Shown one piece after another: positions 2 through 42,781 of a stretch of DNA of 64,000 nucleotides. Both the position numbers and the translations under genes were made by a program. Location: the NCBI GenBank assembly GCA_003133565.1, contig PKYB01000009.1, forward strand, positions 30,204 through 94,203, in the 5' to 3' direction. Under the pieces are notes generated by a model that did not search any database, was not told where the DNA came from, and was given only the letters and a program-made list of their open reading frames with translations. The stretch is from Solirubrobacterales bacterium. GTDB taxonomy: Bacteria > Actinomycetota > Thermoleophilia > Solirubrobacterales > Solirubrobacteraceae. Positions within the stretch are counted from its first letter, which is position 1. Each line of letters opens with the position of its first letter.

Positions 2-352
2 CTCTACAGCGCGCAGGACGTGCGGATCGAGCCCGGGGAGCGGGCGAGCGTCGGCACCGGTATCGCGGTCGCAATACCGACCGGCCACGCCGGGCTCGTG
101 CTGCCACGTTCGGGGCTTGCGGCGCGCCATGGCATCGCGCTGGTCAATGCTCCCGGGCTGATCGACGCGGGCTACCGCGGTGAGCTGCGCGTGTTGCTCT
201 TGAACACCGACCGCGCCGAGGCGTTCGAGATCCGTCCCGGCGACCGCATCGCGCAGCTCGTGATCGTCAGCCTGCCCGAGGTCGAGCTCGAGGAAGCAGA
301 GGAGCTCGAGGCTGCCGAGCGCGGAACCCGCGGATTCGGCTCGAGCGGCTGA
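2..352 (+). CDS. dut: dUTP diphosphatase, 5' end truncated by window edge
   Basis: Motifs [46 protein letters not shown] and C-terminal [10 protein letters not shown] are typical of trimeric dUTPase; frame is open to the left edge. Confidence 0.93.
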
Positions 353-378
353 GCCACGACACCTGACCGTCGGCGCGA

Positions 379-1098
379 TCAGCGCCCGGCGGCATGCAGG
401 GCGCTAGCGTGCGCGGCGTCCTCGAGCGCATCGTCGAGCACAGCGAGCGTCTCCGGCTCGACTGCCAGCGCGCGCGCGATCAGCCAGTCGCACAGCCAGG
501 CGTTTTTCGGCAGCAGCGGGCCGTGGATGTAGGTGCCAAGGACGTTGTCGCGCCGCGCGCCCTCAAAGCCGCTGTGCCCGTCGTTGCCGTGACCGCTCAG
601 CACGCGCCCAAGCGGCGGCTGGTCTGGCCCGAGGCGCGTGCGCCCGGCGTGATTCTCGAAGCCGACAAGCACGCCCTCCTCGAGCGTGATCGCGATGTTG
701 CCGATCAAGCGCGGTCCATCCTCGCGCACGGTCCGTACGTCAAGCAGTCCAACTCCCTCGACGTGCTCCTCGCCGATCTCATAGGAGTGGCCGAGCAGCT
801 GGTAGCCACCGCAGACGCCGAGCACGATCGCGCCGCGCGCCGCCGCCGCACGCAGGGCGGGCGCCTTGCGGGCCACGAGATCGGCGGCACAAAGGCGCTG
901 GTCGGAGTCCTGTCCGCCGCCGATGTAGTAGATGTCGTGCTCGTCACGGAGCGGCGCCTCGAGCGTGCTGGGGCTCAGGCGAAAGTCGATCCCACGCCAC
1001 CTACAGCGCTGTTCGAGCATCAGCAGGTTGCCGCGGTCGGCGTAGATGTTCATCAGTTCCGGGTAGAGCGCACAGACCCGGACCACCTGCGCGCTCAT
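379..1098 (-). CDS. gatD: Lipid II isoglutaminyl synthase glutaminase subunit GatD (class I glutamine amidotransferase)
   Basis: GVCGGYQLLG nucleophile elbow, YIGGGQDSDQ, GFENHAGRT; murT homolog two genes upstream on the same strand. Confidence 0.88.
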   Translation of the reverse strand: MSAQVVRVCALYPELMNIYADRGNLLMLEQRCRWRGIDFRLSPSTLEAPLRDEHDIYYIGGGQDSDQRLCAADLVARKAPALRAAAARGAIVLGVCGGYQLLGHSYEIGEEHVEGVGLLDVRTVREDGPRLIGNIAITLEEGVLVGFENHAGRTRLGPDQPPLGRVLSGHGNDGHSGFEGARRDNVLGTYIHGPLLPKNAWLCDWLIARALAVEPETLAVLDDALEDAAHASALHAAGR

Positions 1099-26628: not shown

Positions 26629-26653
26629 CCGGGCGAGCCCTAGGCTCGCCCGG
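26629..26653. terminator. 11-bp-stem hairpin with the MFS stop codon in its loop
   Basis: CCGGGCGAGCC-CTA-GGCTCGCCCGG, followed on + strand by CCGCATTTT. Confidence 0.55.
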
Positions 26654-27905
26654 CCGCATTTTGGGGCGAGTTGGGCATGCTGACGACCGGGTGCTGGCGT
26701 CGTGGGCGCACGCTCAAGAAGACGACCAGTGCCGCGCTCGCCAACACAGCGCCGAAGAGGGGAGTGCTCGCGAGTCCGACCGTCGATAACGCTAGGCCGC
26801 CAAAGAGCGGCCCGCTCGCGATCCCCACATTGAACGAGGCCGAGTACCAGGCTGACGCGATATCGGTGCTGCGCGGCGCGGCCACGAGGACCCCGGTTTG
26901 CATCGCGATCACGAGGCCGCCAAAGCCGACGCTGTCCAGCGCCACGAAAATCACGGCCGCAGGGCCGTTTCCGCCGAACGCGTAGAGGCTCACGAGAGAG
27001 ATTGCGAGGAGCGCGATCGGGGCGATCGTTGCCGCGCGTGGCCGCCGGCTGTAGAGAGCACCAACCGCCGTGATGCCGAGGGTGCCGGTGATTCCAGTGA
27101 ACAGCAGGACCGGTGCGATGTCGTGCTGTGGCAGTCCGCTCACGCGGTGCAGGAAGGGGCTGATGAAGGTAAACGCGGTGAAGAACCCCGCGACGGCGAG
27201 GACCGCCGTAACCACGATCACGCGATAGCGCCGGGCGTCTGGATCGCTCCCGGCCGCGGCATGGCTATCGGAGGGTTTAGTGGTCGGGATGAGGAGCGCA
27301 ACCGCGCCGAGACTCACGAGTCCAATCCCGGCGAGCACGACGAAAGAAATGCGCCAACCCGCTTGCTGGCCGATCCAGGTCCCTGCGGGGACGCCCAAAA
27401 CGACTCCGACCGAGCTGCCGGCGAAGACGCCGGCGACCGCGCGAGCTCGCTCAGTCGGTTTGAATAGTCCCGCCGCCGTTACCGCTGCCACCGACCAGTA
27501 CACGGCTTGTGACAGCGCCGTAATGGCTCGCGCCGCCACCAGCCAGCCGTAGCTCGGCGCCACTGCCGCCCCGAGCGTGCCGAGGACGAAGATGCCGAGC
27601 AAGCCGGAAAGCAGTAGCCGTCGCGGAATCCGATGTGTGAGATGCGTCAACGGCGCCGAGGCCAGTACGACGACACCGGCATAGACGGTGACCAGCAAGC
27701 CGGTGGCCGATAGCGACGAGTGGAGCCCCGCCGATATCTGAGGCAGGAGGCCAACAGGAAGGTTTTCGCCCGTGACAAAGCAAAACGCCGCCGTCCCTAC
27801 AGCAGCCACCGCCAGGACCGCGGCGAACGGGCGCTGCGTGGACAGCAAATCGACGTCCGCGGAGCCCGCGGGCCGGTCGGGCTCACGGGGGCCAACCCCC
27901 TCCAC
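26640..27905 (-). CDS. MFS transporter (DHA1, AraJ-like)
   Basis: About 12 hydrophobic segments; VYAGVVVLASAPLTHLTHRIPRR; exact start uncertain. Confidence 0.87.
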   Translation of the reverse strand: MEGVGPREPDRPAGSADVDLLSTQRPFAAVLAVAAVGTAAFCFVTGENLPVGLLPQISAGLHSSLSATGLLVTVYAGVVVLASAPLTHLTHRIPRRLLLSGLLGIFVLGTLGAAVAPSYGWLVAARAITALSQAVYWSVAAVTAAGLFKPTERARAVAGVFAGSSVGVVLGVPAGTWIGQQAGWRISFVVLAGIGLVSLGAVALLIPTTKPSDSHAAAGSDPDARRYRVIVVTAVLAVAGFFTAFTFISPFLHRVSGLPQHDIAPVLLFTGITGTLGITAVGALYSRRPRAATIAPIALLAISLVSLYAFGGNGPAAVIFVALDSVGFGGLVIAMQTGVLVAAPRSTDIASAWYSASFNVGIASGPLFGGLALSTVGLASTPLFGAVLASAALVVFLSVRPRRQHPVVSMPNSPQNAAGRA

Positions 27906-27942
27906 GCATACCTCCCGCTAGCTGACCTCGCAATCTAGTCGC

Positions 27943-28761
27943 TTGACCCGCGAAAACAGGGTAGGCCCGACGGTGCGGATCGTTAATGTGCGTTGGGTGA
28001 GCGACTACCCGCAGCGCATTGTCCCTGTCAACCACATCGAGCCGGTGCCGCGGCGGGTGCGCGCCTTTTTGGGTGGGGCGGCTGTGCTCGACACAACCCA
28101 CGCTCTGTATGTCTGGGAGTCGCCGCATTTTCCTCAGTACTACATTCCGCTCGGCGACGTGAACTCGGCGGTACTTGTCGACGAGGGGCACGTCGAGCAT
28201 CTACTCCGTGGCACAGCACAACGACACGGTTTGCGCGTCGGCGAAGCAACTAGGCCAGGCGCTGCCCACGTCTACGGCACCGACGCATTGGCCGGGCTGG
28301 CCGGCACCGTGCGCTTTGAATGGCACGCCCTCGAAGCCTGGTTCGAGGAAGACGAGGAGATCTTTGTACATCCGCGCGACCCCTACGTTCGGGTGGACGC
28401 GCTGCGGTCCAATCGCACCATTCGCGTCGAATTGGAGGGCGTTCTCCTCGCGGAATCCTCCTCTCCGGTCATGGTCTTTGAGACCGGGTTACCGACCCGC
28501 TACTACCTCGACCGCACCACTGTCGACTTTGACCATTTGGTCCATACCGAGACGGTCACTTCGTGCCCATACAAAGGTACGACCAACGAGTACTGGTCGG
28601 CCCACATCGGCGATGAAATACACCAGGACATCGCCTGGTCCTATCGCTTTCCGACCGGCGCCCTGCTGCCGATCGCGGGTCTGATCGCGTTCTACAACGA
28701 GAAGGTCGACCTGACGTTGGACGGCGTGGCGCTCGAGCGGCCCCCGATCAAGTCAAAGTAA
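27943..28761 (+). CDS. DUF427 domain protein (two DUF427 copies)
   Basis: Repeated pattern VRAFLGGAAVLDTTHALYVWESPHFPQYYIPLGDV and IRVELEGVLLAESSSPVMVFETGLPTRYYLDRTTVD; CPYKGTTNEYWS. Confidence 0.88.
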   Translation: MTRENRVGPTVRIVNVRWVSDYPQRIVPVNHIEPVPRRVRAFLGGAAVLDTTHALYVWESPHFPQYYIPLGDVNSAVLVDEGHVEHLLRGTAQRHGLRVGEATRPGAAHVYGTDALAGLAGTVRFEWHALEAWFEEDEEIFVHPRDPYVRVDALRSNRTIRVELEGVLLAESSSPVMVFETGLPTRYYLDRTTVDFDHLVHTETVTSCPYKGTTNEYWSAHIGDEIHQDIAWSYRFPTGALLPIAGLIAFYNEKVDLTLDGVALERPPIKSK

Positions 28762-28849
28762 GCCCGGTTTCGGTTACATAATCCGCGACCGGGGGGTGGG
28801 CCTGGAAATCGCGGAGCCAATCTCTTTCTCGCTGCATGCGTGGCGCTGC

Positions 28850-29500
28850 TCACAGTCCGCCTGGCAACGCGCCGTGCAGCTTGGTGCACGTCCGATTCGC
28901 GCGCAGGAAGATCGGCGAGTTGGGGTCGAGGTCGCTGCCAGGGCGCCAGTTGAGCTCCAAACCGGCGCTCGTCGGGTCGGGGAAGTCGAGCACGCCATGG
29001 CTGCGCATGCACTGCGCGTAGACGACCGCCTGTTTGAGGAACAGCTGCTGCTGGGCGAGGCTGGCCGTGGCGTTGGTCAGGTCCTTATTGCACCTCTCCT
29101 GCGCGGCCATGATCTCGGACGAGCCCGGGACGATCCCGACGAATGCTCCCTGCGAGTTCGGATCGGGGAAGTTGGGGTCGCCGTTCACGCGCGCGCACTG
29201 CGCGAACTTGAGCAGCTGTGCGTTGCTGTAGGAGCGTCCTGTTGCGCTTATCTCCTTAACCGAAGCGCCGGCCACCAGCGAAGTCGAGCTCGGCGCGCCG
29301 CCGCCGGCAGGGGACGACCGCACGCCACTGTTCGAGCCGGAGCTGTTGACGGCCGAGCCGGAGTGCGACTTGCCGAGGCTGGCGACACCGGGCGAACTAC
29401 CGCCGCAGGCACCAAGCAACAGACCGACCGCGATCGCCGAGATCGCCGCCACGAGCCCACGCGCCCGCACGCGATGTATCACGGTCCTAATGGCTGACAA
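28850..29500 (-). CDS. Lipoprotein with two FPDP-type repeats
   Basis: Lipobox LLLGACGGSS; repeats FAQCARVNGDPNFPDPNSQG and YAQCMRSHGVLDFPDPTSAG. Confidence 0.75.
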   Translation of the reverse strand: MSAIRTVIHRVRARGLVAAISAIAVGLLLGACGGSSPGVASLGKSHSGSAVNSSGSNSGVRSSPAGGGAPSSTSLVAGASVKEISATGRSYSNAQLLKFAQCARVNGDPNFPDPNSQGAFVGIVPGSSEIMAAQERCNKDLTNATASLAQQQLFLKQAVVYAQCMRSHGVLDFPDPTSAGLELNWRPGSDLDPNSPIFLRANRTCTKLHGALPGGL

Positions 29501-29890
29501 CTGAGCCGGTTCCCTCTCTGACGGATCATAGAACGCCTCACAACGAGTCGTGGGTCGGCCTCACGCCGAGATCTCCGGCACGGTGACGCCAGGACGCCAT
29601 GTCAGGGGGGACCCGAGCGTAAACGCTCACGAAGACAGCGGAGCGACGCCGAGCGGACCGCTCTGCAGCAGCACCTACCACTGGACCGCGCGCGCGTAAC
29701 CTCCGCGGCGCCTGCGTGCGAGCGCGCCACCACAGTCGACCGAGCGGCCACCCGCGGCTGACCGGCCAGTTCAGTGTCCCCAACGCCTTCCTTCGGGCGC
29801 AAACGCCACAAACAAGCCCCTGATGCCGCGGCTACCGCTCCCTCGCGGCTGGCAACACTACATAAGATAGATTATCGAGCGTAATTGATC

Positions 29891-30174
29891 GTGAACGGGA
29901 CGCCGAAGGAGCACTCCAAGGCGTACAGCCGGTTTCGGCGGGTTGTTGTCGGTACCCCGCCGGCACGAGGAGCATCCCGGCTCGACCAGCTGCGCTGGAT
30001 GCGCGGCGTCTACGTACGAGTGCTGCCGTGGAGCGTGCCGTGTTACTGGTCATAGCCCTCTGGTATCCCTGCTGGCTGCCAGCAGCGTTCGGCGTTTTGT
30101 GGATCGCCGGCGTGACTAACATCAGCCTCCGGATTCGCCGCGAGCAGGGACACCACGCGAGACCCGGCTCGTAG
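29891..30174 (+). pseudogene. Frameshifted (or two-ORF) small membrane protein
   Basis: ORF1 29891..30055 VNGTPKEHSKAYSRFRRVVVGTPPARGASRLDQLRWMRGVYVRVLPWSVPCYWS*; ORF2 30028..30174 VERAVLLVIALWYPCWLPAAFGVLWIAGVTNISLRIRREQGHHARPGS*. Confidence 0.4.
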
Positions 30175-30355
30175 CCTGCGCTCCAGGCCCATCAAGAGGC
30201 GCCCTTCGGGCGCTGCGCGTCGCTGACGCGACGGCTCTTGACTAGCCCTCCGCTAAGGCGCAGTGCAGTTTCACCCGGTGATAGATAAACGAGCGTAACG
30301 GGAGCGACGTCAGGCGCACCTCAACGCACGCGATCTTCCCGGGTGGAAGGGAACG

Positions 30356-33300
30356 CTACGGCTGCGACCGCGTGTCGAGATTGTTCAGTTCGTCCGCTAG
30401 AGCGGTGGCCAGGTCATCGACGTCTGGTGCGGTAAACACCGACGCGTGGTTGCCCGGGATTGATCGTGTGCCGATCGGTCCAGCGACGTGTCGATTCCAT
30501 CCGAGCTGCGGTCCGCCCATCAGGATCTCGCTGCGCGACGTGTGCAGGACGGTCACGGGCGCGGCCAGGCGCGATGGGCGGTAGCGACGCATGAGCTGCA
30601 GTGCTCCGGCCTGGTCCCACGGATCGTCGAAGCCGCGCGGCCAGGTCTGGAGAGGTCGCTGACCGCGCGTCAGCGCGAGCCCGAGTCGCAGCGCGTTGCG
30701 AACTAGATCGGCCTGTTCCCGCGCACGACGAGCCAACGACTCGCCTCTCACGGTGCGGTCGCGCGCCGCAATGCGCCCACGCCAGCGGAACCCTTCAGGC
30801 GCGACTGTATCGATCAGGATCACCAGCTCGACGCGCGCGCCTGCCGCAATCAGACTGAGCGCCATCTCGAACGCGACGAGGCCGCCGAGCGAGTGCCCGC
30901 CAAGTCGGTACGGGCCCTCCGGATCGCGTGCCCGGACAGCGACTAGGCATGCGGTCGCAATCTCCTGCACGCTGGAGTTGCGCCACGAGGGAACCGCGGG
31001 GTCGACTGCCTGCATGGCATAAACAGGCTGATCGGTGAGCACCGCCGGAAGCACGTTTCGCAGACCGATCACACCGCGCTGGTCCGTCAACACACAGATC
31101 CATGGTGGCCTTGTACCGGTCGGCCGGAGCGGAATGAGCATGTTTGATGTCGGTACCAACTGCGCCGACTCGATCGCGGTGGCCTGATCCGCCAGGGTGG
31201 TCGACGTAAGCAGTGCACCGACCGACAGTTTCCGGCCGAAGCGATCCTCGACGGCGGCGAGCAGGTGCAGCGCGCTGAGCGAGTCTCCGCCGAGCGCAAA
31301 GAAATCGTCGTCGCCGGCAATTGGCGTCGCGATATCGAGTACCTCGCTCCAGAGCTCAGCGAGACTGCGCTGAGCAGCGTCGGTCACCACTCCCCCATTC
31401 GCCTTCGCGGCGCCCGCACTGGGGTCCGGTAGAGCACGACGGTCGAGCTTCCCGTTCGGTGTGAGCGGGAGCGCGTCGAGGACGACGATCGCGCTTGGCA
31501 ACAGGGCAGCTGGCAGCCGGCTTGCGAGCGTCTCATGGACCCGCGTCAGGTCAGGCGGCGTGCTTGAGGCGGAGACCACGTAGGCCACCAGCTTGCGCTC
31601 GCCGCCTTCGCCACGCACAACGACGGTCGCATCGGCAATCGAGTCCTGATCGGCCAGTGCCTGCGCCAGCTCGCCGGGCTCGATGCGCACGCCGCGGATC
31701 TTCACTTGATCATCGAGTCTCCCGCGATATTCGAGCAAACCGTCCCGCGTCCAGCACGCCAGATCCCCGGTGCGATATACCCGCACAGGATCAGCCCCCG
31801 TAAATGTGAGCTCGGGGAAGCGCTCAGCCGTCAGCTCTACTCGCCCGAGATAGCCGCGCGCGAGACCGAAGCCAGCGAGCAGCAGCTCACCAGCGACGCC
31901 CTCTGGAACAGGCCGAAGATGGCGGTCGACGATGTAGGCCTGTGTCCCAGGTAGTGGTCGTCCGATGTACGGGCGGCCCCCGGGCTCGCAGCGATGGGCT
32001 GTCGAGTACGTTGAGTCCTCGCTAGGACCGTAGAGGTTCCAGACGGCACGGATGCCCTGCTGGGCATAGAGCCGATCGATGAGCGCCGCTGGCAGTGCTT
32101 CGCCGCCCAGGCCGACGGTGTGCACAGACCGCGGCAGGTCGCGAACTCGCAGCAGCTCGCTCAGGGCGGACGGGATGGTGTTGACGAACGCGATCTCGTG
32201 ACGGAAGTCAGGGTCGCTAAGCGCCAGGATGTCGTCAACGAGCACGATGCGTCCCCCGAGCGCCAGCGTCACGAGGATCTCGAACACGGAGAGGTCGAAG
32301 CTCAGCGAGGTGGACGCGAGCATCCCGTCCCGCTCATCGTCGGCAAACGTTGTCGCGGCCCACGCGACGAGCTGCGCTACCGAGCGATGCTCGACCATCA
32401 CCGCCTTTGGCGTTCCTGTCGAGCCCGATGTATAGATGAGGTGCGAGAGATCGTCAGGCGCCACGGACCGCGCTGGCGACGCCCCGGCGTTATTCGCGGG
32501 CCGGCCGTCGGCGATTAGAACGGCGCAGTGTTCGAGCGTCGGTAGCAGGCTCCGCGACCGCGCATCGGTGACCACGAGCTCGGCCCCGCTGTCGTCGAGC
32601 ATGAAGGCCAGTCGTTCGGCTGGGTACCGCGGATCAAGCGGCAGATAAGCCGCGCCGGTACGTTGCACCGCTAGCAGCGCAACGACCATATCGGCCGTGC
32701 GCGCCATAGCGATGCCGACGATCGTGCCGCGGCCCGCACCGAGCTCCGTGAGGTCTGCTGCGAGCTGCTCCGCTCGCGCGCCGATTTCGCCATAGCTCAG
32801 GCGCTCGTCGCCGTGCTCGACTGCGATGCGCTCGGGATGGTCGAGGATCCGCTCGCGAACGAGGACGGGCACGAGCTCTCCGGCGGTGGGCGGGTGAGCG
32901 TCGCTTGTCTCGCCCGAGAGCGCTCGCCGCCGCTGCGGGCTGAGCTCGCAGACGGCCCCCACTGCCGCCTCCGGATCGGACACGCAAACGCGCACCATCG
33001 CTTCGTAGCGGTCGATGATGCGGATGACCTCATCGACTGGAACGAGCGTCTCGTCGTAGAGCACGTTGACGCGGATCTCGGCATCGCCAAAGGCTTCGAG
33101 CGTCAGCGGAAAATCGAGCTGCTCGATCAGCCGAACGTCACGGCGCTCCCATGCTGGATCGAGGCCACGTAGCACGGCATTCATCGAGGCCGTCTCGTAG
33201 GAGAACAGCGTCTCGGCGATCGGCCGCGAGCGCGCGAGCGCGCTCCAGCGTCGCATCTCCGACAGCGGCGCATGTTCGAACTCGCGCACCGCAAGGTTGA

Positions 33301-34267
33301 ATTCGCGAACCCGCGTCATCCACTGCCTCACTGTTTCGTCCGGCTGCAGACGCAGCCGGACCGGCGAGGTCACCATCAGTAGCCCGATGATGCCTTCGGT
33401 ATCGAACGGTGGCGATCGACGTCCGGCACGCGTCGTCGCAAACAGCAGGTCGTCGCTGTCAGCCTCCTGCGCAAGGAGCAGTCCGTAGGCGCCTTGGAGG
33501 ATGGTTGCTGGGGTGAGCTCGTACGCCGACGCCATGCTGCGCAGCGCGTTCGAGAGTTCCGCGTCGAGCAGTCGCGACATCATGCCGCCGCCGTGCTCGC
33601 TGGAATTCTTCGATCCGTCGGTCGGACGAGCGCCCGGCGCAGGCGTCGGCTCGTCGATCCCATCGAGGACCTCGCGCCAGAACGCCTCGGTCGCGGCATC
33701 ACTGCCGCGGCTCGCCGCCCACTCCGCAAACTGCTCGAACGATGTCGCCGCTTCTTCCTGTCCCGCGCGGCCGGATGGGTTCTCGCGGTAGATCTCGAAG
33801 ACTTCGCCTAGCAGCGCCACGCGCGAGCGTCCGTCAAGGATCGCGTGGTGGTAGGTCCACAGGATCCGGGTTTCGCTGTCGGCGAGAAGGCAGATAGCGA
33901 CGCGCATCAGCGGCGGTTGCGCCAGCTCGAAGCCGACCTGCCGGTCGGTTACCAGTAGTTCCTGCCAGCGGCTCTCACGCTCGCCTTCAGAGAACCCGCG
34001 CCAGTCTGCGATCGCGACGCCGAGTTCGACCTTGTCATGGACGCACTGGCGCGGCGTCGCCGACTCGCCGATCAAGAAGCTGGTGCGCAATGCCCCATGT
34101 CGCTGCACGAGTACCAGCCACGCCCGGCGGAGCAGGTCGGCATCGAGCGACTCGCGACAGGTGACAGCGACCTGCTGCGTGTAGATGCCGCGGCGCCCGC
34201 TGAGCGTCTCGTAGAGCAGGCCCGCCTGCATCGGCGCGCAGGCGAAGGTCGCCTGTGCGGAGCTCAT
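30356..34267 (-). CDS. Single-module nonribosomal peptide synthetase C-A-T-TE
   Basis: C: HHAILDG; A: LIYTSGSTGTPKAV, NLYGPSEDSTYST, GELLLAGFGLARGYLGR; T: DDFFALGGDSLSALHLL; TE: GGHSLGG. Confidence 0.96.
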   Translation of the reverse strand: MSSAQATFACAPMQAGLLYETLSGRRGIYTQQVAVTCRESLDADLLRRAWLVLVQRHGALRTSFLIGESATPRQCVHDKVELGVAIADWRGFSEGERESRWQELLVTDRQVGFELAQPPLMRVAICLLADSETRILWTYHHAILDGRSRVALLGEVFEIYRENPSGRAGQEEAATSFEQFAEWAASRGSDAATEAFWREVLDGIDEPTPAPGARPTDGSKNSSEHGGGMMSRLLDAELSNALRSMASAYELTPATILQGAYGLLLAQEADSDDLLFATTRAGRRSPPFDTEGIIGLLMVTSPVRLRLQPDETVRQWMTRVREFNLAVREFEHAPLSEMRRWSALARSRPIAETLFSYETASMNAVLRGLDPAWERRDVRLIEQLDFPLTLEAFGDAEIRVNVLYDETLVPVDEVIRIIDRYEAMVRVCVSDPEAAVGAVCELSPQRRRALSGETSDAHPPTAGELVPVLVRERILDHPERIAVEHGDERLSYGEIGARAEQLAADLTELGAGRGTIVGIAMARTADMVVALLAVQRTGAAYLPLDPRYPAERLAFMLDDSGAELVVTDARSRSLLPTLEHCAVLIADGRPANNAGASPARSVAPDDLSHLIYTSGSTGTPKAVMVEHRSVAQLVAWAATTFADDERDGMLASTSLSFDLSVFEILVTLALGGRIVLVDDILALSDPDFRHEIAFVNTIPSALSELLRVRDLPRSVHTVGLGGEALPAALIDRLYAQQGIRAVWNLYGPSEDSTYSTAHRCEPGGRPYIGRPLPGTQAYIVDRHLRPVPEGVAGELLLAGFGLARGYLGRVELTAERFPELTFTGADPVRVYRTGDLACWTRDGLLEYRGRLDDQVKIRGVRIEPGELAQALADQDSIADATVVVRGEGGERKLVAYVVSASSTPPDLTRVHETLASRLPAALLPSAIVVLDALPLTPNGKLDRRALPDPSAGAAKANGGVVTDAAQRSLAELWSEVLDIATPIAGDDDFFALGGDSLSALHLLAAVEDRFGRKLSVGALLTSTTLADQATAIESAQLVPTSNMLIPLRPTGTRPPWICVLTDQRGVIGLRNVLPAVLTDQPVYAMQAVDPAVPSWRNSSVQEIATACLVAVRARDPEGPYRLGGHSLGGLVAFEMALSLIAAGARVELVILIDTVAPEGFRWRGRIAARDRTVRGESLARRAREQADLVRNALRLGLALTRGQRPLQTWPRGFDDPWDQAGALQLMRRYRPSRLAAPVTVLHTSRSEILMGGPQLGWNRHVAGPIGTRSIPGNHASVFTAPDVDDLATALADELNNLDTRSQP

Positions 34268-35193
34268 CCGGCGGTAGACGACGCCGGCAGTCCGAGCGTT
34301 GCCCGCGTCTCCGCGACGCCGCTGAGCGGTCTTCCTGCCATACCCGCCAGCGTTGCCACGCGACTCACGAGCTCTGCGTTGGTCGCCGGCGTCCGCGTGA
34401 GGTGATCGAGGTGCGGATTGTCCTCAAGCCCGGTGCGTACATGCCCGCCAGCGAAGACGGCGATCGCATTGATCGGCAGCTGGAAGGCGCCAATTCCGGC
34501 TGCTGCCCAGACGGCGTCGGCGGGTAGCGCGTCGACGAGCTGCGCTAGGGCACCGATCTGGGCGGGCGCGGTGTTTGCGGAGCCGAGGAGGACGTTCACG
34601 TACATCGGCGGCGGCAACAGCCCCTCTGCCTGCAGTGTGTGAGCGAGATATGCCATACCGCTATCGAAAACCTCTAGCTCGGGACGGATTCCCGCCGCGG
34701 CCATCCGCTCGGCCAGAGCGCGGATCATGTCCGGCGAGTTCATGCTGGCGACATCGCGGAAGTTCAGTGAACCGAGCGTCAGGCTAGCCATGTCGGGTTT
34801 GGCCGCTCCCTCGAGCGCCAGCACGTCAGCGCGCTTCTCGAGTTCGCTGAACGTACGCCCGCTGGTGCTGACGCAGACGACGATGCCGGGACATTGCTCG
34901 CGGATTTCGGGGATGAACGCCGCGTAGCCTTCGCGGCGCCATTCGGGTGACTCGTCGGCTGCGCGCGCGTGCAGGTGGACAATCGTCGCACCTGCCTCGT
35001 AGCACGCCTGCGCGTCGGCAACGATCTGCGCTGCGGTCACAGGGACGTGGGGCACCCGTTCACGACGTGGCACCATGCCGGTCAGTGCCGCGTTGATGAT
35101 CAGCGGCGGATACGGACGCAGCGGGTACGGAATATACGCTGGGTAGGAAGCGCTGCGTGCCGTCCCGCCAGCGAGCGTGACATTGCTCGGCAA
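34264..35193 (-). CDS. DUF849 / beta-keto acid cleavage enzyme (BKACE) family
   Basis: PPLIINAALTGM, YEAGATIVHLHARAADESPEW; TTG start proposed; ATGA overlap with the NRPS; the track's N-terminal extension lacks family similarity. Confidence 0.85.
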   Translation of the reverse strand: MPSNVTLAGGTARSASYPAYIPYPLRPYPPLIINAALTGMVPRRERVPHVPVTAAQIVADAQACYEAGATIVHLHARAADESPEWRREGYAAFIPEIREQCPGIVVCVSTSGRTFSELEKRADVLALEGAAKPDMASLTLGSLNFRDVASMNSPDMIRALAERMAAAGIRPELEVFDSGMAYLAHTLQAEGLLPPPMYVNVLLGSANTAPAQIGALAQLVDALPADAVWAAAGIGAFQLPINAIAVFAGGHVRTGLEDNPHLDHLTRTPATNAELVSRVATLAGMAGRPLSGVAETRATLGLPASSTAG

Positions 35194-35484
35194 GCAAACA
35201 CCGTAACGGTGCGGGTCGTGGGAGTCAACGATTGCACCTGACGCGCGTTGCCACCCGACGGCCCAAGCCGCTTGCTGCGCGCGCGCGAAGTACCTCGCCA
35301 ACGCGCGTTGATTCAGGAGGCGCTTTCTGCCTACGCGGACGATCTGCGCGAACGCGGCGGACGTTGCCTTCGCCACGCCACACCGTCGGCAGGCGGCTGC
35401 ACCCGTTCCACCGGTCTCGGTAAGGTCGGGGATGCCGCTTGCAGATCGCAACCGGTGGTGTCGGTCCAGAGAAGAGGGAATCGG

Positions 35485-36015
35485 ATGACAGCGGAGGACG
35501 TGACAGCGGAGATCCATGGGTTCAGCGAGCCGGACGCGACACCGACGCCGTGGGCGGCGGGACTTGAGCAGCTACGTGCCGCGGACACCTTCTGGCTGTC
35601 CACAGTTCGTCCCGACGGCCGGCCGCACGTCACGCCCTTGATCGCTGTCTGGCATGCCAGGGCGCTCTGGTTCGCGACCGGGCCTGAGGAGCGCAAGGCG
35701 CGGAATCTGGCCGAGAACCCGTCGTGCGTGCTGACGACCGGGCGCAGCGACCTCGTGGAGGGAGCGCTTGACGTCGTGCTCGAGGGCCGTGCGGAGCAGG
35801 TGACCGACGACGCCGAGCTCGAGCCGGTCGCGACCGCCTTCGCGGTCAAGTACCCGACCGGTCCTTGGGACTTCGCGGTGCGCGGCGGGGCGTTCAGCGG
35901 CCGGGATGTCGGTGGGCGCGTGATCGTGTTCCGGGTGCGCCCGGTGCGAGGGCTTGGGTTCCGCAAGGGCGATCGCTTCAGCCAGACGACCTGGCGGTGG
36001 CCCTCATCACGATGA
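35485..36015 (+). CDS. PPOX-class pyridoxamine 5'-phosphate oxidase/F420-type protein
   Basis: FWLSTVRPDGRPHVTPLIAVWHARALWFATGPEERKARNLAENPSCVLTTG. Confidence 0.85.
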   Translation: MTAEDVTAEIHGFSEPDATPTPWAAGLEQLRAADTFWLSTVRPDGRPHVTPLIAVWHARALWFATGPEERKARNLAENPSCVLTTGRSDLVEGALDVVLEGRAEQVTDDAELEPVATAFAVKYPTGPWDFAVRGGAFSGRDVGGRVIVFRVRPVRGLGFRKGDRFSQTTWRWPSSR

Positions 36016-36048
36016 TCGTCTGTCGCTCCAGTCCGGCGGTCTGAAGGC

Positions 36049-36609
36049 ATGCTGATCTACTCGACCAGCGTCTCGGTGGACGGCTTTATTGCCGACCGTG
36101 AGGGCGCGTTCTCCTGGTCGGTTCCCAACGAGGACCTGTTTCGTTTCCACGTCACGCAGACACGCGAGCTTGGTGGCTTTCTGTTGGGCCGCAGGCTCTA
36201 CGAGACGATGCTGGTGTGGGAAACGGATCCGTCGATGCGCGGCAACGAGCTCCACGTCGCGTTCGCCGACGCCTGGTGCGCGATCCCGAAGATCGTGTTC
36301 AGCCGCACGCTCGACAGCGTCCAAGGCAACGCGCGGCTCGCCGAGGCGTCGCTGGCCGAGGAGGCCGCTGCGGCGCTCGACGCGACCGACAAGGGTGTCG
36401 CGGTCGGCGGCGCCGGCCTGGCTGCGGTGGCTGTCGAGCTCGGTCTCGTCGACGAGCTGCGCATGTTCCGGAAACCGGTGATCGTCGGTGGCGGCACGCC
36501 GTTCCTGCCGCCGGTGACCGAAGACGTCTTGCTCGACCTGATCGAGACCAGGACGTTCGGCTCCGCGATCTACGAGCGCTACCGGCGCGTCCGCGAAGAC
36601 TCCAATTGA
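36049..36609 (+). CDS. Dihydrofolate reductase-like / RibD C-terminal domain protein
   Basis: YSTSVSVDGFIADREGAFSW; FRKPVIVGGGTPFLPP. Confidence 0.88.
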   Translation: MLIYSTSVSVDGFIADREGAFSWSVPNEDLFRFHVTQTRELGGFLLGRRLYETMLVWETDPSMRGNELHVAFADAWCAIPKIVFSRTLDSVQGNARLAEASLAEEAAAALDATDKGVAVGGAGLAAVAVELGLVDELRMFRKPVIVGGGTPFLPPVTEDVLLDLIETRTFGSAIYERYRRVREDSN

Positions 36610-36714
36610 CAGCCCCAACGGCGCACAGCCATCGCCCAGGTCAAACTAACCGACTGCCACACCGTGTCATCCACACGGGAACTTGATCGGAGGCCCCGTA
36701 GGCCCGTGAAAGCG

Positions 36715-37056
36715 TCAGTGCGCGCCGAACTTATCGCGCGCGGTGATCACCTTTGCGCCCTCGATGCACCTGACCGCGTAGACGTTTTTGGTGCTCGTCT
36801 TCTGGTCGGTGCAGGCGAAGCCCGTATCCGTTGCGACCGCGTATTTCGCCCAGCTCCCGAGGACCTTATGAGCCACCTTGCACGAGACGCCGACTAGCTT
36901 GATGTCGGTGAACTTGTTTGTCTCGTGCGATGCGGCAACTTTGTAGCTTCCGCAAGCTGTCTTCTTTGCTGCTTTTTTAGCGGCTGCCGGCGGGGCGAGC
37001 AGACCGCTCGCCAGAAGCGCTCCCACGCACAGCAGGCCGCCAGCAAAACGACGCAT
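36715..37056 (-). CDS. Small secreted hypothetical protein
   Basis: Signal peptide MRRFAGGLLCVGALLASGLLAPPAAA; GGAGGTG Shine-Dalgarno just upstream of the 37056 ATG; three Cys in the mature part. Confidence 0.65.
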   Translation of the reverse strand: MRRFAGGLLCVGALLASGLLAPPAAAKKAAKKTACGSYKVAASHETNKFTDIKLVGVSCKVAHKVLGSWAKYAVATDTGFACTDQKTSTKNVYAVRCIEGAKVITARDKFGAH

Positions 37057-37173
37057 GGCAGTCACCTCCGTGTTGATTGCGAGTCTAGCTCGATTCAAAG
37101 TCACCCACTACCCGTCGTTGGCGTCGATTGGCGGACCCCAATCGGTTTTGCGGGCTTGGCACACTTCAGGCTC

Positions 37174-37608
37174 GTGACCTACCCTCCTACCGTCCGCCAT
37201 TTGCTCCGCGCCAAAGACCTCGCCGACGCGCGTTACTTCGATCCGCTGGGCGTCGCTGATCTCGCCCGTACTGCCGGGCTCTCGCGTGCTCACTTCAGTC
37301 GCGAGTTCCGCCGAGCCTTTGGCGAGTCGCCGCACGCCTATCTCCTCACGCGTCGGCTCGAGCGCGCCGCGGCGCTACTGCGGATGACAGATCGTTCTGT
37401 CGCAGACATCTGTTTCTCGATCGGACTGCAGAGCGTCGGCTCGTTCACCACAAGCTTCACAGGCGCCTTCGGCGCGTCACCCACCGCCTACCGTGCGCGC
37501 TACCCCCCGGCGTCGCAGCTTGCAGTTGTCCCCTCGTGCATCCAACGCGCCTACGGACGTCCGCAACGCAGCACGTTTCGAGAAGACAGCGTTCCGAGGT
37601 CGCCCTAG
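37174..37608 (+). CDS. AraC-type helix-turn-helix regulator (DNA-binding domain only)
   Basis: GVADLARTAGLSRAHFSREFRRAFGESPHAYLLTRRLERAAALLR; GFITTSF-like second HTH; GTG start. Confidence 0.85.
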   Translation: MTYPPTVRHLLRAKDLADARYFDPLGVADLARTAGLSRAHFSREFRRAFGESPHAYLLTRRLERAAALLRMTDRSVADICFSIGLQSVGSFTTSFTGAFGASPTAYRARYPPASQLAVVPSCIQRAYGRPQRSTFREDSVPRSP

Positions 37609-37647
37609 CATCGGCGCACACCCTTCCCCCAAGCCAGGAGACGACCA

Positions 37648-38076
37648 ATGATCAAGATAACCACCGCCCAGCTGTGGGTGCACGATCAGGACGAGGCACT
37701 CGCGTTCTACACCGAAAAGCTAGGCATGGAAGTGCGCATGGACGTGACATTCCCTGAGATGGGCAACTTCCGCTGGCTGACGGTTGCGCCGGTCGGTCAG
37801 GACGAGGTAGCGATCGTTTTGATGGCGATTCCGGGTCCACCGGTGATGGACGACGAGACGGCAGACCAGATCCGCAAACTGCTCGCCAAGGGCTTCGCGA
37901 GCACCGTCTTCCTGACGACTGACGACTGCCAGGCCACATACGAGGAGCTGCGGGCGCGCGGCGTCGAGTTCTCGAGCGAGCCGGAGGAGCGTCCCTACGG
38001 AATCGACACAGGGTTCAGTGACCCCTCGGGGAACAACATCCGCCTCACCGAGGTGCGCGCGTTCGCGTCTGTCTGA
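37648..38076 (+). CDS. VOC (glyoxalase/dioxygenase) superfamily protein
   Basis: QLWVHDQDEALAFYTEKLGMEVRMD...FSDPSGNNIRLTE. Confidence 0.88.
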   Translation: MIKITTAQLWVHDQDEALAFYTEKLGMEVRMDVTFPEMGNFRWLTVAPVGQDEVAIVLMAIPGPPVMDDETADQIRKLLAKGFASTVFLTTDDCQATYEELRARGVEFSSEPEERPYGIDTGFSDPSGNNIRLTEVRAFASV

Positions 38077-38145
38077 GACCCGTTTCGGGTGGGCCGGCGC
38101 TCTAGGCTCCGGCCCACCAGAAGTCTGCAGCGATCGGGAGCGTGG

Positions 38146-38769
38146 ATGGACGAGCAACTGGCGGTATACCTAAACGATCTGTACGAGCACGGGCGCGCGC
38201 ATGACGCCGGCAAGGCCGACCGGCTTGATCGCCTGCGCAACGTCGAACCCGACACGGCGCGGCTGCTTGGAGTGCTGGTGCGGGCCACCGGCGCAAAGCG
38301 CATTCTCGAGATCGGCACCTCAAACGGCTTCTCCACGCTCTGGTTGGCGGACGCCGCAAGGAGCGTCGAGGGACGCGTGGTGAGCGTTGAGGTCGACCCG
38401 GCCCGTAGCGCGGAGGCCTTTACGCACCTCGGCGAGACAGGGCTCGACGACTTTGTCGAGCTGCGCACCGCGGACGCCGCAGAGACGCTCGAAGGCTCTG
38501 GCGACGAATCGTGGGATCTGATCTTCCTCGATGCCGAGCGGCCGGCCTACGAGGGTTATTGGCCCGATTTGATCCGCGTGTTACGGGTCGGCGGGCTGCT
38601 GGTGGTTGACAACGTCGTCTCACACGCTGACGAGCTGCGCGAATTCCGCGAACGCGTTGAGGCGGATCCGCGCGCGAGCGAAGCGCTCGTACCGACCGGT
38701 GCCGGCGCCCTGCTCATCGTTAGGGGAACTAGCGTCGACACCGCCGCGGAGGCACGCATCCAGCGGTAG
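38146..38769 (+). CDS. Class I SAM-dependent O-methyltransferase
   Basis: ILEIGTSNGFSTLWLADAA; WDLIFLDAERPAYEGYWPDLIRVLRVGGLLVVDNVV. Confidence 0.88.
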   Translation: MDEQLAVYLNDLYEHGRAHDAGKADRLDRLRNVEPDTARLLGVLVRATGAKRILEIGTSNGFSTLWLADAARSVEGRVVSVEVDPARSAEAFTHLGETGLDDFVELRTADAAETLEGSGDESWDLIFLDAERPAYEGYWPDLIRVLRVGGLLVVDNVVSHADELREFRERVEADPRASEALVPTGAGALLIVRGTSVDTAAEARIQR

Positions 38770-38940
38770 GCGGCGGCCTGGATCGCAAACAACTCGGCGT
38801 AGAGCCCGCCGCTGGTGGCGAGGGTTGGCGTCAGGTTCACCGCTCGACGCACGAGGCCCGAAGTCGAGTGGTCGGGCTGATTGGACAGCGTCGTACTCAC
38901 CGCGTGCGGCTACCACGAGTTGATCGGCTCGCCGGCGCCA
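38763..38940 (-). pseudogene. Possible decayed 3' end of an ABC transporter ATPase gene
   Basis: Minus strand: TLATSGGLYAELFAIQAAAYR resembles ABC exporter C termini; adjacent frame has RRRADQLVVAARGEYDAV resembling the region after the H-loop. Confidence 0.35.
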
Positions 38941-39303
38941 AAGATGCGCGGGCCGCACAGCGACTCGCCCGGCGCGCGGACCGCGACTTCACGCCGCGCC
39001 CCGGCGCGAATCGGGCCAGGCGCAGGCTCCGTTGTAAGCCGGGAGCCGCGCCGACGGGCAACGTCTTGGGTGCCGCTGGCCCAGTGCGTGCAAGTCGCGT
39101 CGCGAGCGCCCGCAATTTCAGCCAGCGCGATGTCAAAACGATCACTGGCGGGGTGTCGTAGACGGGTCGTGTCGTTGGCGGTCGGGAGAGCACTAGCAGC
39201 ATCGTGGTGGGCGTGGAGAACATGCGACGGTTCCTTTCCGAGCAATTTTTATGGAGGTAGTGGGACCGGTCTTGGCATTGATCTGGGGTGCGCGCTCGAT
39301 CAC

Positions 39304-39317
39304 TGCAACCGGTTGCG
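39304..39317. promoter_or_regulatory. LacI-family operator-like palindrome (copy 1)
   Basis: TGCAACCGGTTGCG, one mismatch from the copy at 40353. Confidence 0.65.
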
Positions 39318-39341
39318 TTGCTGGGCAAAAAAAGAGTCCGC

Positions 39342-40352
39342 TCATGCCGACTCGCGAACGACGAGCTCGGCCGGTATTGAGACGTTCGTCACGGCGCCAG
39401 TGCGTAGATGTTGGATCAGGTTCTCGGCGAGCAGCCGGCCTGCCAACGGTCCGTTCTGCCGGACCGTGGTCAGCGGCGGAGCGCTGTGGCGGGCGAGCGC
39501 CACGTCGTCGTAGCCGACCACCGCTACATCGTCGGGCACACGCAGGCCACGGGCGCGGAGCTCTTCCATCGCGGCGATCGCCACCGCGTCGCTGGTCACA
39601 AATAAGCCGTCGAGGTCACTGGCTTGCTCGAGCAGCGCTACCACCGCCTTGGTCCCCCACGCAAGCGAAAACGGACCGTAGGTGACGAGCGCCGGATCGA
39701 CGCTCTTGCCGGCGTCACGCAATGCCACCTCATAGCCTCGGTAGCGCTCGCGGACCTCAGGCTCGCGAGCCGGGCCTCCCATGAAGCCGATTCGACTCCT
39801 GCCGCGGCGCAGCAGATGCTCGGTCGCAACCTTGCCGCCGGCGAAATTGTCACCGCTCACCGAACAGTAGTTGTGGCTTCCAGACGCACCACCCCAGATG
39901 ACGAACGACGCATTCGCCTCGGTGAGCGTCTGGATGTGACTCGCTGTGCAGCTCGCGGCCAACAGGATGAAGCCGTCGACGCGGCCGGATTGGAGGTAAC
40001 GGCGCACCCAATCGGTGTCCGTCGGCGAGACCTGGATCACGAGGAGGTCGTAGCCCTCGGCATGGAGCCCGCTGGCGATCCCGCTCATCGTTTCGAGCAT
40101 GAAGGCGTCCGGCACGGTGTCATCGGCTTTGTACGCATAGGTCACGAGCGCCACGACGTGGCTCTGCCCAAGGCTCAGCCGTCGAGCTGGATCGCTCATC
40201 TGAAAGCGCTGCTGGCGGGCGATCTCGCGAATGCGCTGCTTCGTCTCAGCACCGACCAACGGGCTGTCGTTCAAGGCCCGTGAAACGGTCGACTTCGAAA
40301 CGCCCGCCAGGTGAGCAATGTCGACAATGGTGTTGGCGCGAGCGTCATTCAT
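39342..40352 (-). CDS. LacI-family transcriptional regulator
   Basis: TIVDIAHLAGVSKSTVSRALNDSPLVGAETKQRIREIA; periplasmic-binding-like effector domain. Confidence 0.93.
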   Translation of the reverse strand: MNDARANTIVDIAHLAGVSKSTVSRALNDSPLVGAETKQRIREIARQQRFQMSDPARRLSLGQSHVVALVTYAYKADDTVPDAFMLETMSGIASGLHAEGYDLLVIQVSPTDTDWVRRYLQSGRVDGFILLAASCTASHIQTLTEANASFVIWGGASGSHNYCSVSGDNFAGGKVATEHLLRRGRSRIGFMGGPAREPEVRERYRGYEVALRDAGKSVDPALVTYGPFSLAWGTKAVVALLEQASDLDGLFVTSDAVAIAAMEELRARGLRVPDDVAVVGYDDVALARHSAPPLTTVRQNGPLAGRLLAENLIQHLRTGAVTNVSIPAELVVRESA

Positions 40353-40366
40353 TGCAACCGGTTGCA
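40353..40366. promoter_or_regulatory. LacI-family operator palindrome (copy 2) at the lacI-like start
   Basis: Perfect palindrome TGCAACCGGTTGCA. Confidence 0.75.
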
Positions 40367-40439
40367 TCATAGCAGGACGAAAACCAGACTGCAGCCCACC
40401 TGCCGCCCCGACCGCCTGCTCAGCTTCGGCAGGCGGCGC

Positions 40440-40778
40440 TCAGAGTGCCGCCTGCTCCTCCACTGTCAGCTCCGCCCACGGCTCGACCTCGAGGCGGCCG
40501 TCGGGGATCGGATCGCCGCTGCGGATCGAGCGTCCATAGGTCCCCTCCTCCAAGCGCTGCTCGGCTCGCTCGATCGCCTCGAGGCGTTGCGTCAGCAACT
40601 CGTCCACAGCATCGTCGGTCCCGCGCTCGACGAGGCCATCGGCGTCACTGGAGGGGTCAGTCTGGTCCTCGGGCGTGGTGGCTGAACCGCGGCGCAGTCG
40701 CTCGAGTTCACCTTCAGTCTCCCGGCGTGCCTCCGCCAGCAGCACCACTGCACGGTCGTCGTCCACGCGGACAACCAT
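40440..40778 (-). CDS. DksA/TraR-like protein lacking zinc-finger cysteines
   Basis: EAIERAEQRLEEGTYGRSIRSGDPIPDGRLEVEPWAELTVEEQ aligns with the DksA C-terminal region with Cys positions replaced. Confidence 0.75.
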   Translation of the reverse strand: MVVRVDDDRAVVLLAEARRETEGELERLRRGSATTPEDQTDPSSDADGLVERGTDDAVDELLTQRLEAIERAEQRLEEGTYGRSIRSGDPIPDGRLEVEPWAELTVEEQAAL

Positions 40779-40829
40779 AGCCTGTCTGAGACAACGGCCC
40801 ACGTGCGCCGGGCGGACGGCGGCGGCGGA

Positions 40830-41435
40830 CTACTGAGGATCGCCGACGAACGCGCGCAGCGCGGCGTTGCCACCGCTCACGACCGGGTCGCCGTGGGCCA
40901 GCAGCAGGAGATCGAAGTCGAGCTCGAGCAGTCGCCCATAGGCCTCGCGAAGTCCGGCCTTTGTCTCCTCGGGATTGTCCATCAGCTCGTCGGGAACGAA
41001 GCCAAGCGACGCGCCATCGCGCCAGCGCACGACACCGTCGGCGCACGCCAGCGCGCGGTGCGCGGGGATATGCAGCGCGGTCTCATCGGGGCAGATCGCG
41101 TCAACTTCGTGAACGACGACACCGCCGGGCAGCTCATCGCCAAAGTCAAACGCCGTGACCGGCCCGCGGCCGGCGAGCTCGTGAAGGCCGTTGCGGATGC
41201 AGTGGATCGTGCTATCGAAGGCCTCGTGCAGTCGCCAGGCGTCACGGTCGTGGTGGCGATTGGTAAGCAGCACGTGCTCGGGCGTGGTGTGTGATTCAAA
41301 CCACGCGATGCCGTCGGGGGCCAGCAGCGGATCGATCGCGACGCGCTCGCTGGCGAGGTAGTACGAGCTGACGTTCATGTGGATCTGCGGGTGCCGGACG
41401 CTCGAATGCCAAAGGCCGGGCGCGATTTCCTCCAT
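40830..41435 (-). CDS. Metallo-beta-lactamase-fold-like hypothetical protein
   Basis: IAPGLWHSSV, LLTNRHHDRDA in place of HxHxDH, LLLAHGDPVVSGG. Confidence 0.6.
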   Translation of the reverse strand: MEEIAPGLWHSSVRHPQIHMNVSSYYLASERVAIDPLLAPDGIAWFESHTTPEHVLLTNRHHDRDAWRLHEAFDSTIHCIRNGLHELAGRGPVTAFDFGDELPGGVVVHEVDAICPDETALHIPAHRALACADGVVRWRDGASLGFVPDELMDNPEETKAGLREAYGRLLELDFDLLLLAHGDPVVSGGNAALRAFVGDPQ

Positions 41436-41500: not shown

Positions 41501-42781
41501 TCACCTCGGGTTGGTCGGGGTCGGCAGCGTCGTCCAGGCCGACCCCACGAGCTGGTCCGCCGAGGCGGAAATATGCCCGCTCCCCGTGGCTACGTAGTAG
41601 CCGACTGCATGACACGAGCTCGACGTGGCGCACGACACGCCGCCGCCGAGCGTATCCGAGCTACCTTCGCTCGCCGGAATCAGGAACTGCCAAAGCCCGC
41701 CGCTCAGGCTCTCGGCGAAGGGGGCCAGAGCCGTCGCGCCCGCGGCGCCGGTGCTTCCGCCTGAGGCGCCAGTACTACCAGTCGAGGCACCGGTACTACC
41801 AGCCGAGACGCCAGTACTGCCGGTCGAGACGCCAGTGCTGCCAGTACCGCCTTCCGACGGCTGTTCCGAAGCTTCAACGTCGCCGACGGCGACACAACTG
41901 TCGACTTGAGGGCAGCTGATGCCCGAGAAGCCCGCCGTCGGCGCCGCGGCGACGGTCAGCTCCGAGACCTCTCCGCCGCCGATCTCGAGCGCTAGCGGCG
42001 TCGTGGTGTTCGCGCCCGCGGCCTGAACCGTGCCGGCCGCGATACACCAGCCGGCCGCAGGGCACGACACCGAGGTGAGCGTCGGCGTTTCACCTGTGAC
42101 GTGTGTGGAGACGGCGTGCCAGCCGCCGTCGTCGTAGCGCTCCACGCGCGCAGACTGACCGTCGCCGGAGAATGCAGTGCCGACAGCGACACAGTTGTAG
42201 CGCGATGCACACGACACACCGTGCAGCGGCGCGCCGTTGCCGCCACTCGAGCCGGGGCTCGTCATCCGTGACCACTTCCGGCCGTTCCACAGCTCGATGA
42301 GCGGCTGGCCCTGTGCCGTGGCGCCGACCGCCACGCAGAAGCGCGTAGCGACGCAGGAGATGCTCTCGAGCGTTGACGCACGCGGCGAGGATCGGACGGC
42401 CTCGCGGCTCCAGCGTCGTCCGCGCCAGATCTCGCTGAGCGCTCCGCCGTTCTGCTCGTCGCCCACCGCGATGCAAAACACGGCTGAGACACACGAAACT
42501 CCGAGTAGCTGTGACGAGCGGCCGACTGCAGCGACGGGGAGCGCGACCCAGGCGCCATCGCGCAGGGCCTCGGCGAGCGGCAGCTCGTTGGCGCCAGACG
42601 CGATCTGGCCGACCGCCATGCAGTCAGCGTCCGGGGCGCAGGAAATCGCCGCGAGCGAGTTCTGCGAAGCAAACTGAGTCGCGGACGCGTCGACGGCGCC
42701 ACCGCTGCAGGCCACCGCGAGGGCAAGCGCGGCACCCAGCGCGCAGCCGCCAGCGAACAGCCGGGTCCCAGACCTATACAC
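41501..42781 (-). CDS. Secreted repeat protein with SCxxxxxCxAVG motifs and GSTG linker
   Basis: Signal/lipobox-like N terminus; seven SC-x5-C-x-AxG repeats; five 7-aa GSTG repeats. Confidence 0.75.
   Translation of the reverse strand: MYRSGTRLFAGGCALGAALALAVACSGGAVDASATQFASQNSLAAISCAPDADCMAVGQIASGANELPLAEALRDGAWVALPVAAVGRSSQLLGVSCVSAVFCIAVGDEQNGGALSEIWRGRRWSREAVRSSPRASTLESISCVATRFCVAVGATAQGQPLIELWNGRKWSRMTSPGSSGGNGAPLHGVSCASRYNCVAVGTAFSGDGQSARVERYDDGGWHAVSTHVTGETPTLTSVSCPAAGWCIAAGTVQAAGANTTTPLALEIGGGEVSELTVAAAPTAGFSGISCPQVDSCVAVGDVEASEQPSEGGTGSTGVSTGSTGVSAGSTGASTGSTGASGGSTGAAGATALAPFAESLSGGLWQFLIPASEGSSDTLGGGVSCATSSSCHAVGYYVATGSGHISASADQLVGSAWTTLPTPTNPR
41740..41850. repeat. Approximately five 21-nt coding tandem repeats (GSTGxSx)
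   Basis: Units such as gaggcgccagtactaccagtc / gaggcaccggtactaccagcc / gagacgccagtactgccggtc. Confidence 0.75.

Follow-up and report, generated by a model that had tools for sequence, protein, structure and literature searches.

The window, the whole 64,000-nucleotide stretch of DNA analyzed here, is part of contig C47 in an assembly of 2.68 Mb that comprises 103 contigs and is 86% complete. It encodes a beta-keto acid cleavage enzyme (BKACE) and a stand-alone NRPS module, whose genes share the four bases ATGA (Table 1). The preliminary description of this DNA had reported a BKACE gene overlapping a complete C-A-T-TE NRPS gene in this way, and Pfam searches, core motifs, and the sequence itself bear this out. 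A PPOX-family gene (Pfam) and a lipoprotein-like gene (by eye) neighbor the pair; no donor carrier protein was found close to it, and the ORFs of 29.5-30.35 kb, inspected by eye, include nothing recognizable as an MbtH-like or other small gene.

Table 1. Coordinates of the gene pair and its features in the window
Feature	Position	Strand	Remarks
NRPS, stand-alone C-A-T-TE module	30356..34267	-	1303 aa; Pfam and motifs
Thioesterase (TE) domain	30368..31132	-	residues 1046-1300; Ser/Asp/His triad motifs intact
Carrier (T) domain	31157..31378	-	residues 964-1037; LGGDSL
Adenylation (A) domain	31412..32872	-	residues 466-952; code DLFNGGLTYK (small amino acid, Ala-like)
Condensation (C) domain	32948..34258	-	residues 4-440; HHAILDG; DCL-like
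ATGA overlap, BKACE stop with NRPS start	34264..34267	-	TTGA at the equivalent place in G793
BKACE (DUF849, PF05853)	34264..35193	-	start codon uncertain
Promoter-like TTGACT-17-TACGGT	35200..35228	-	immediately upstream of TTG 35193; by eye; weak

The two genes have a GC3 of 0.76 to 0.78, compared with 0.858 (sd 0.034) for 40 other called genes, although several neighbors at 26-41 kb are also low and the gene caller favors high GC3. The region at 26640-41000 (GC3 0.76-0.87, below most of the window) is probably accessory, because its GC3 is low and pieces of it are scattered across the genus's other genomes. Beyond it, 41501-42781 (minus strand) encodes a predicted secreted protein with C-x-A-V-G-type repeats and a TGST/GAS low-complexity stretch and with no Pfam match.

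BKACEs usually convert a beta-keto acid and acetyl-CoA to an acyl-CoA and acetoacetate, and they have mostly been studied as catabolic enzymes that degrade beta-keto acids. The window BKACE matches the full PF05853 model (positions 1-274) at 280.5 bits against a cut-off of 24.8, and its AlphaFold model (pLDDT 88.6; residues 1-20 of low confidence) superimposes on solved BKACEs with a TM-score of 0.95. Its best NCBIfam match, 3-oxoadipate:acetyl-CoA acetyltransferase (NF053568), scores 236.5 bits, under the equivalog cut-off of 350. A sister copy on another contig of the assembly, C80, begins with an ATG preceded by GGAGG. The window reads GCT at that position (about 35151), so translation must begin at the nearest usable start, TTG at 35193, or at some other codon upstream, and the choice between them is uncertain. 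Such an altered start could lower BKACE expression, but the reading frame is open and conserved.

The zinc site and the catalytic Arg and Asp are intact (H73, H75, E257, R253, and D258). In Kce numbering, His46, His48, and Glu230 (metal), Ser82, Glu143, Arg226, and Asp231 are kept, and the only changes at metal or catalytic positions are E14V, T106S, and Y145F. In Kce, the substrate's amino group is bound by Glu14; Val in its place suggests that the substrate of the window enzyme lacks a positively charged end. The position of the catalytic Tyr145 is occupied by F176. According to a preprint on BsfD, this Tyr is present in all BKACEs and its loss is tied to a different chemistry (PMC12871164). 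Among 14 ordinary BKACEs that we extracted by tblastn from the same order, the residue is Tyr in 6 and Phe in 8, and it is also Phe in the 3NO5/3CHV sequences. Because Phe is so common among ordinary relatives, we dropped it as a mark of BsfD chemistry; it gives no basis for assigning a reaction, and the Tyr itself is doubtful as a criterion.

Domains and specificity of the NRPS

The Pfam domains Condensation, AMP-binding, PP-binding, and Thioesterase follow one another in this order, all above cut-off, and the core motifs are complete (HHAILDG, YTSGSTGTPK, LGGDSL, GGHSLGG, and the thioesterase Asp and His); they are also intact in a second copy of the pair, in genome G793. If position 517 is set to the invariant Lys, the adenylation codes read DLFNGGLTYK in the window, DLFNAALTYK in G793, and DLFNNALTYK in McyA (8JBR), so that by alignment the window code agrees with McyA at 8 of 10 positions and the G793 code at 9 of 10. 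McyA module 2 activates alanine; the code makes a small amino acid, alanine, the most likely predicted substrate of the window module.

In the PDB, the C domain is most similar to McyB and to the C domain of PvdL located after an E domain. A tree of 41 C and E domains, typed by their position in the assembly line and including few starter references, places it with the DCL domains (97/91), on a long branch that is sister to them, and not with the starter (acyl-accepting) domains. DCL domains normally accept their donor from a carrier protein, and a carrier-borne donor would be at least as natural here. The preliminary description, which had the C domain attach an acyl-CoA made by the BKACE, named C-domain phylogeny as a check; the outcome is not a starter domain, and the step in which acyl-CoA is taken directly is weakened by the grouping with DCL domains. 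A TE replaces the KS with which a tetramic acid synthetase of the TAS1 type (C-A-T plus a cyclizing KS) ends, and this TE could itself cyclize the product.

Recurrence of the gene pair

Neither the BKACE nor the NRPS gene occurs in any of the three further genomes of the genus. Relatives of the NRPS in 232 genomes of the order are generic NRPSs only, 32-43% identical, with no good relative among them, and one further relative (36% identical) came from a sample of the phylum. A search with the BKACE through 399 genomes of the class led to G793, a genome from a different family of the same class, by way of a BKACE that is 77% identical; the pair was reached only through the BKACE and not through the NRPS search. 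A 7-kb contig of this genome (L108) carries a BKACE and an NRPS gene that again overlap by 4 bp (TTGA). The BKACEs are 75-78% identical and the NRPSs 63% over the whole length, or 60% in the C, 68% in the A, 65% in the T, and 63% in the TE domain. The flanking genes differ between the two genomes: G793 has unrelated housekeeping genes around the pair, with ispD/ispF upstream and a MutY-like gene (by eye from its translation) downstream. DNA similarity is confined to a stretch that runs from inside the 5' end of the BKACE gene to near the 3' end of the NRPS gene. Window and G793 are the only two complete copies known.

Both genes are kept under purifying selection, as dN/dS between the two copies is 0.28 for the NRPS and 0.13 for the BKACE; for the C80 BKACE it is 0.06-0.11. 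Together, the recurrence in G793, the differing flanks, the limits of similarity, the dN/dS values, and the GC3 make the pair look like a horizontally acquired, mobile two-gene cassette. The question raised in the preliminary description, whether the pair is conserved, is thus answered by the same overlap in a second family and at an unrelated site, and its view that the genes form one functionally linked operon gains support from the shared ATGA and from this conservation. Because a different family carries the same unit in an unrelated location, the pair is probably more than an accident of neighborhood, and the BKACE and the NRPS probably cooperate on a small acylated amino acid.

Relatives of the BKACE and the rest of the genome

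We read the gene surroundings of BKACE relatives above about 45% identity. The BKACEs of the NRPS line (window, C80, and G793) form one clade with support of 100/98. Its sister is the BKACE of genome G031, where about 20 bp separate the BKACE gene from a divergent gene for a NeuD-like acyltransferase; a GT2 gene comes after the latter. The remaining clade members neighbor hexapeptide acyltransferases of the NeuD/PglB/VioB type, DegT aminotransferases, and glycosyltransferases. A hexapeptide acyltransferase is encoded within 1.5 kb at 9 of 16 clade loci and at none of 14 ordinary BKACE loci (Fisher P = 0.0009, a descriptive value, since the loci are related and the acyltransferase profile was built from them). 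Two clade members, L004 and G651, are BKACE-GNAT fusions, and a GNAT gene adjoins the BKACE in G112. Because a BKACE is fused to an acyltransferase, its acyl-CoA product would be passed on, and the window BKACE is probably a biosynthetic acyl-donor enzyme and not a catabolic one.

Several of these loci are of interest in their own right. The BKACE-GNAT fusions at L004 6917-8314 and L109 2471-3805 lie in surface-glycan-like regions (genes there encode PaaK-like ligases, ATP-grasp proteins, and asparagine synthase). At L039, L041-L043, L056, L058, L059, and L110 the BKACE adjoins NeuD/PglB/VioB-type acyltransferases, and a DegT aminotransferase or a GT2 gene is often present as well; such loci are a possible route to unusual N-acylated sugars.

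No C or E domain other than that of the window NRPS was found in the 86%-complete genome. The remaining carrier proteins are encoded with FabF/FabH/PlsX-like genes (fatty-acid ACPs, by eye) or at an amino acid:carrier ligase locus. The latter (L048, contig C44, 2213-5557) comprises an amino acid:[carrier protein] ligase (NF005479 above cut-off), DUF1839, an acyl-CoA-dehydrogenase-like gene, and a carrier protein, and an ACPS-family gene adjoins the cluster; it is a possible source of an aminoacyl-carrier donor.

Contig C80, which is 4 kb long with gaps, matches the window in G+C but could derive from another strain. Its BKACE is 86% identical to the window copy over the part present, the contig ending inside the gene. 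Divergent from it are genes for an Sfp/HetI-type PPTase and for an acetoacetate-CoA ligase that continues into a carrier domain and the beginning of a TE (A-T-TE; L038, 457-2781 and about 2-439, minus strand; TIGR01217 above cut-off). That the ligase carries a TE was judged from five full-length relatives of about 1000 aa (L092 9306-12359, L093 9053-12013, L094 733-3795, L095 9787-12720, and L096 9810-12836). From its sequence, the A-T-TE is predicted to activate acetoacetate; we know of no description of such a ligase-carrier-thioesterase fusion. Because it exists in five other genomes without this BKACE clade, with a PPTase adjoining in four, the C80 BKACE may have landed beside it.

Proposed pathway, alternatives, and known systems

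The chemistry and the product that we propose are inferred at every step. The BKACE would convert a beta-keto acid and acetyl-CoA to a two-carbon-shorter acyl-CoA and acetoacetate. The A domain would load a small amino acid, most likely alanine, onto the T domain, which a PPTase encoded elsewhere would activate (a candidate is the Sfp/HetI-type enzyme on C80). The C domain would then join the BKACE-derived acyl group to the amino group, with either acyl-CoA or a carrier protein in trans as the donor, and the TE would free the N-acyl amino acid or a cyclized form of it. Of the earlier proposal, the idea of the BKACE as a maker of acyl donors is upheld indirectly, by close relatives that stand beside or are fused to acyltransferases; direct transfer from acyl-CoA fits less well with a DCL-like C domain that is no starter, although it has a precedent in TAS1, whose C domain is able to use acyl-CoA directly (PMC4640141). 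For the chain as a whole, a BKACE acyl group joined to an NRPS-loaded amino acid and released by the TE, we estimate a probability of about 0.45. More tentatively, the entire BKACE branch might consist of non-catabolic, dedicated makers of acyl donors, each having an acyl-transfer enzyme of its own as partner or fusion domain. These enzymes would be NeuD-type sugar acyltransferases, GNATs, and, in the lineage of the window, a mobile one-module NRPS making a new class of N-acyl-alanine or cyclized metabolite.

The main rival to this model takes acetoacetate, the constant co-product of BKACEs, as the building block: the C domain would receive an acetoacetyl group from the A-T-TE or from acetoacetyl-CoA and form N-acetoacetyl-alanine, and the TE may then cyclize this to a tetramic acid. 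The gene neighbors of the sister BKACE on C80 point this way, as does TAS1, which condenses acetoacetyl-CoA with an amino acid before its KS closes tenuazonic acid (PMC4640141). However, the A-T-TE has an independent existence in five genomes without this BKACE clade, and C80, gapped and only 4 kb long, may belong to another strain; we consider this route unlikely. Slightly less credence goes to a termination module like SrfA-C, in which an aminoacyl or acyl donor would arrive from a carrier elsewhere in the genome and the BKACE would modify or supply a side component. The DCL-type C domain, its McyB and PvdL matches, and the possible aminoacyl donor on C44 are consistent with such a role, whereas two points argue against it: the 86%-complete genome yielded no further C domain and no E domain, and the cassette appears to move as two genes only.

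Two further readings concern the BKACE itself. Its Phe at the Kce Tyr145 position, which BsfD of the flavophos pathway shares, could reflect a BsfD-like reaction (C-acetylation of a beta-keto acid, then decarboxylation) yielding a diketone used by, or made from, the NRPS product; this is improbable, as the same Phe in 8 of 14 ordinary BKACEs of the order and in 3NO5/3CHV is not diagnostic. A catabolic BKACE might also precede the NRPS by chance, and the absence of both genes from the genus's other three genomes and the low-GC3, accessory-looking region would suit unrelated neighbors. The same pair with the same overlap, in another family and between other flanks, makes this the least probable reading. 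We favor BKACE-fed acylation.

The preliminary description knew of no characterized pathway with this pairing, and we likewise found none in the open literature (subscription papers and MIBiG/antiSMASH lie outside that search). The cassette is a new combination of known enzyme kinds and not a new kind of system, with its chemistry inferred. Along with the BKACE-GNAT fusions and the BKACE-NeuD pairs, it suggests that the same Claisen-type reaction also serves biosynthesis, by generating acyl donors locally from beta-keto acids. With two genes and about 4.8 kb, the cassette lends itself to expression in a laboratory host, where mass spectrometry could identify what it makes; such a product would be the first from a one-module NRPS fed by a BKACE.

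Among known systems, Kce (PDB 2Y7D-G; PF05853) shares with the window BKACE the fold (TM 0.95), the zinc ligands H46/H48/E230, and S82, E143, R226, and D231, and is set apart by the E14V, T106S, and Y145F substitutions and by the biosynthetic neighborhood of the window enzyme. BsfD, from the flavophos phosphonate cluster (PMC12871164), is likewise a DUF849 enzyme recruited to a natural-product cluster, with Phe at the Tyr position; unlike there, the window locus has no phosphonate genes and the partner is an NRPS. The McyA alanine module (PDB 8JBR) resembles the window module in its adenylation code (8/10) but is part of a multimodular line with an E domain. The termination modules of SrfA-C and EntF agree in domain order (C-A-T-TE) and size, and the C domain of SrfA-C is presumably DCL-like as well, yet no upstream NRPS or aryl carrier protein lies near the window pair. 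TAS1, the tenuazonic acid synthetase (PMC4640141), consists of one C-A-T module, which transfers the acyl group of an acyl-CoA to one amino acid, as proposed for the window NRPS; it is fungal and ends in a KS, whereas the window NRPS ends in a TE and has a BKACE as its partner.
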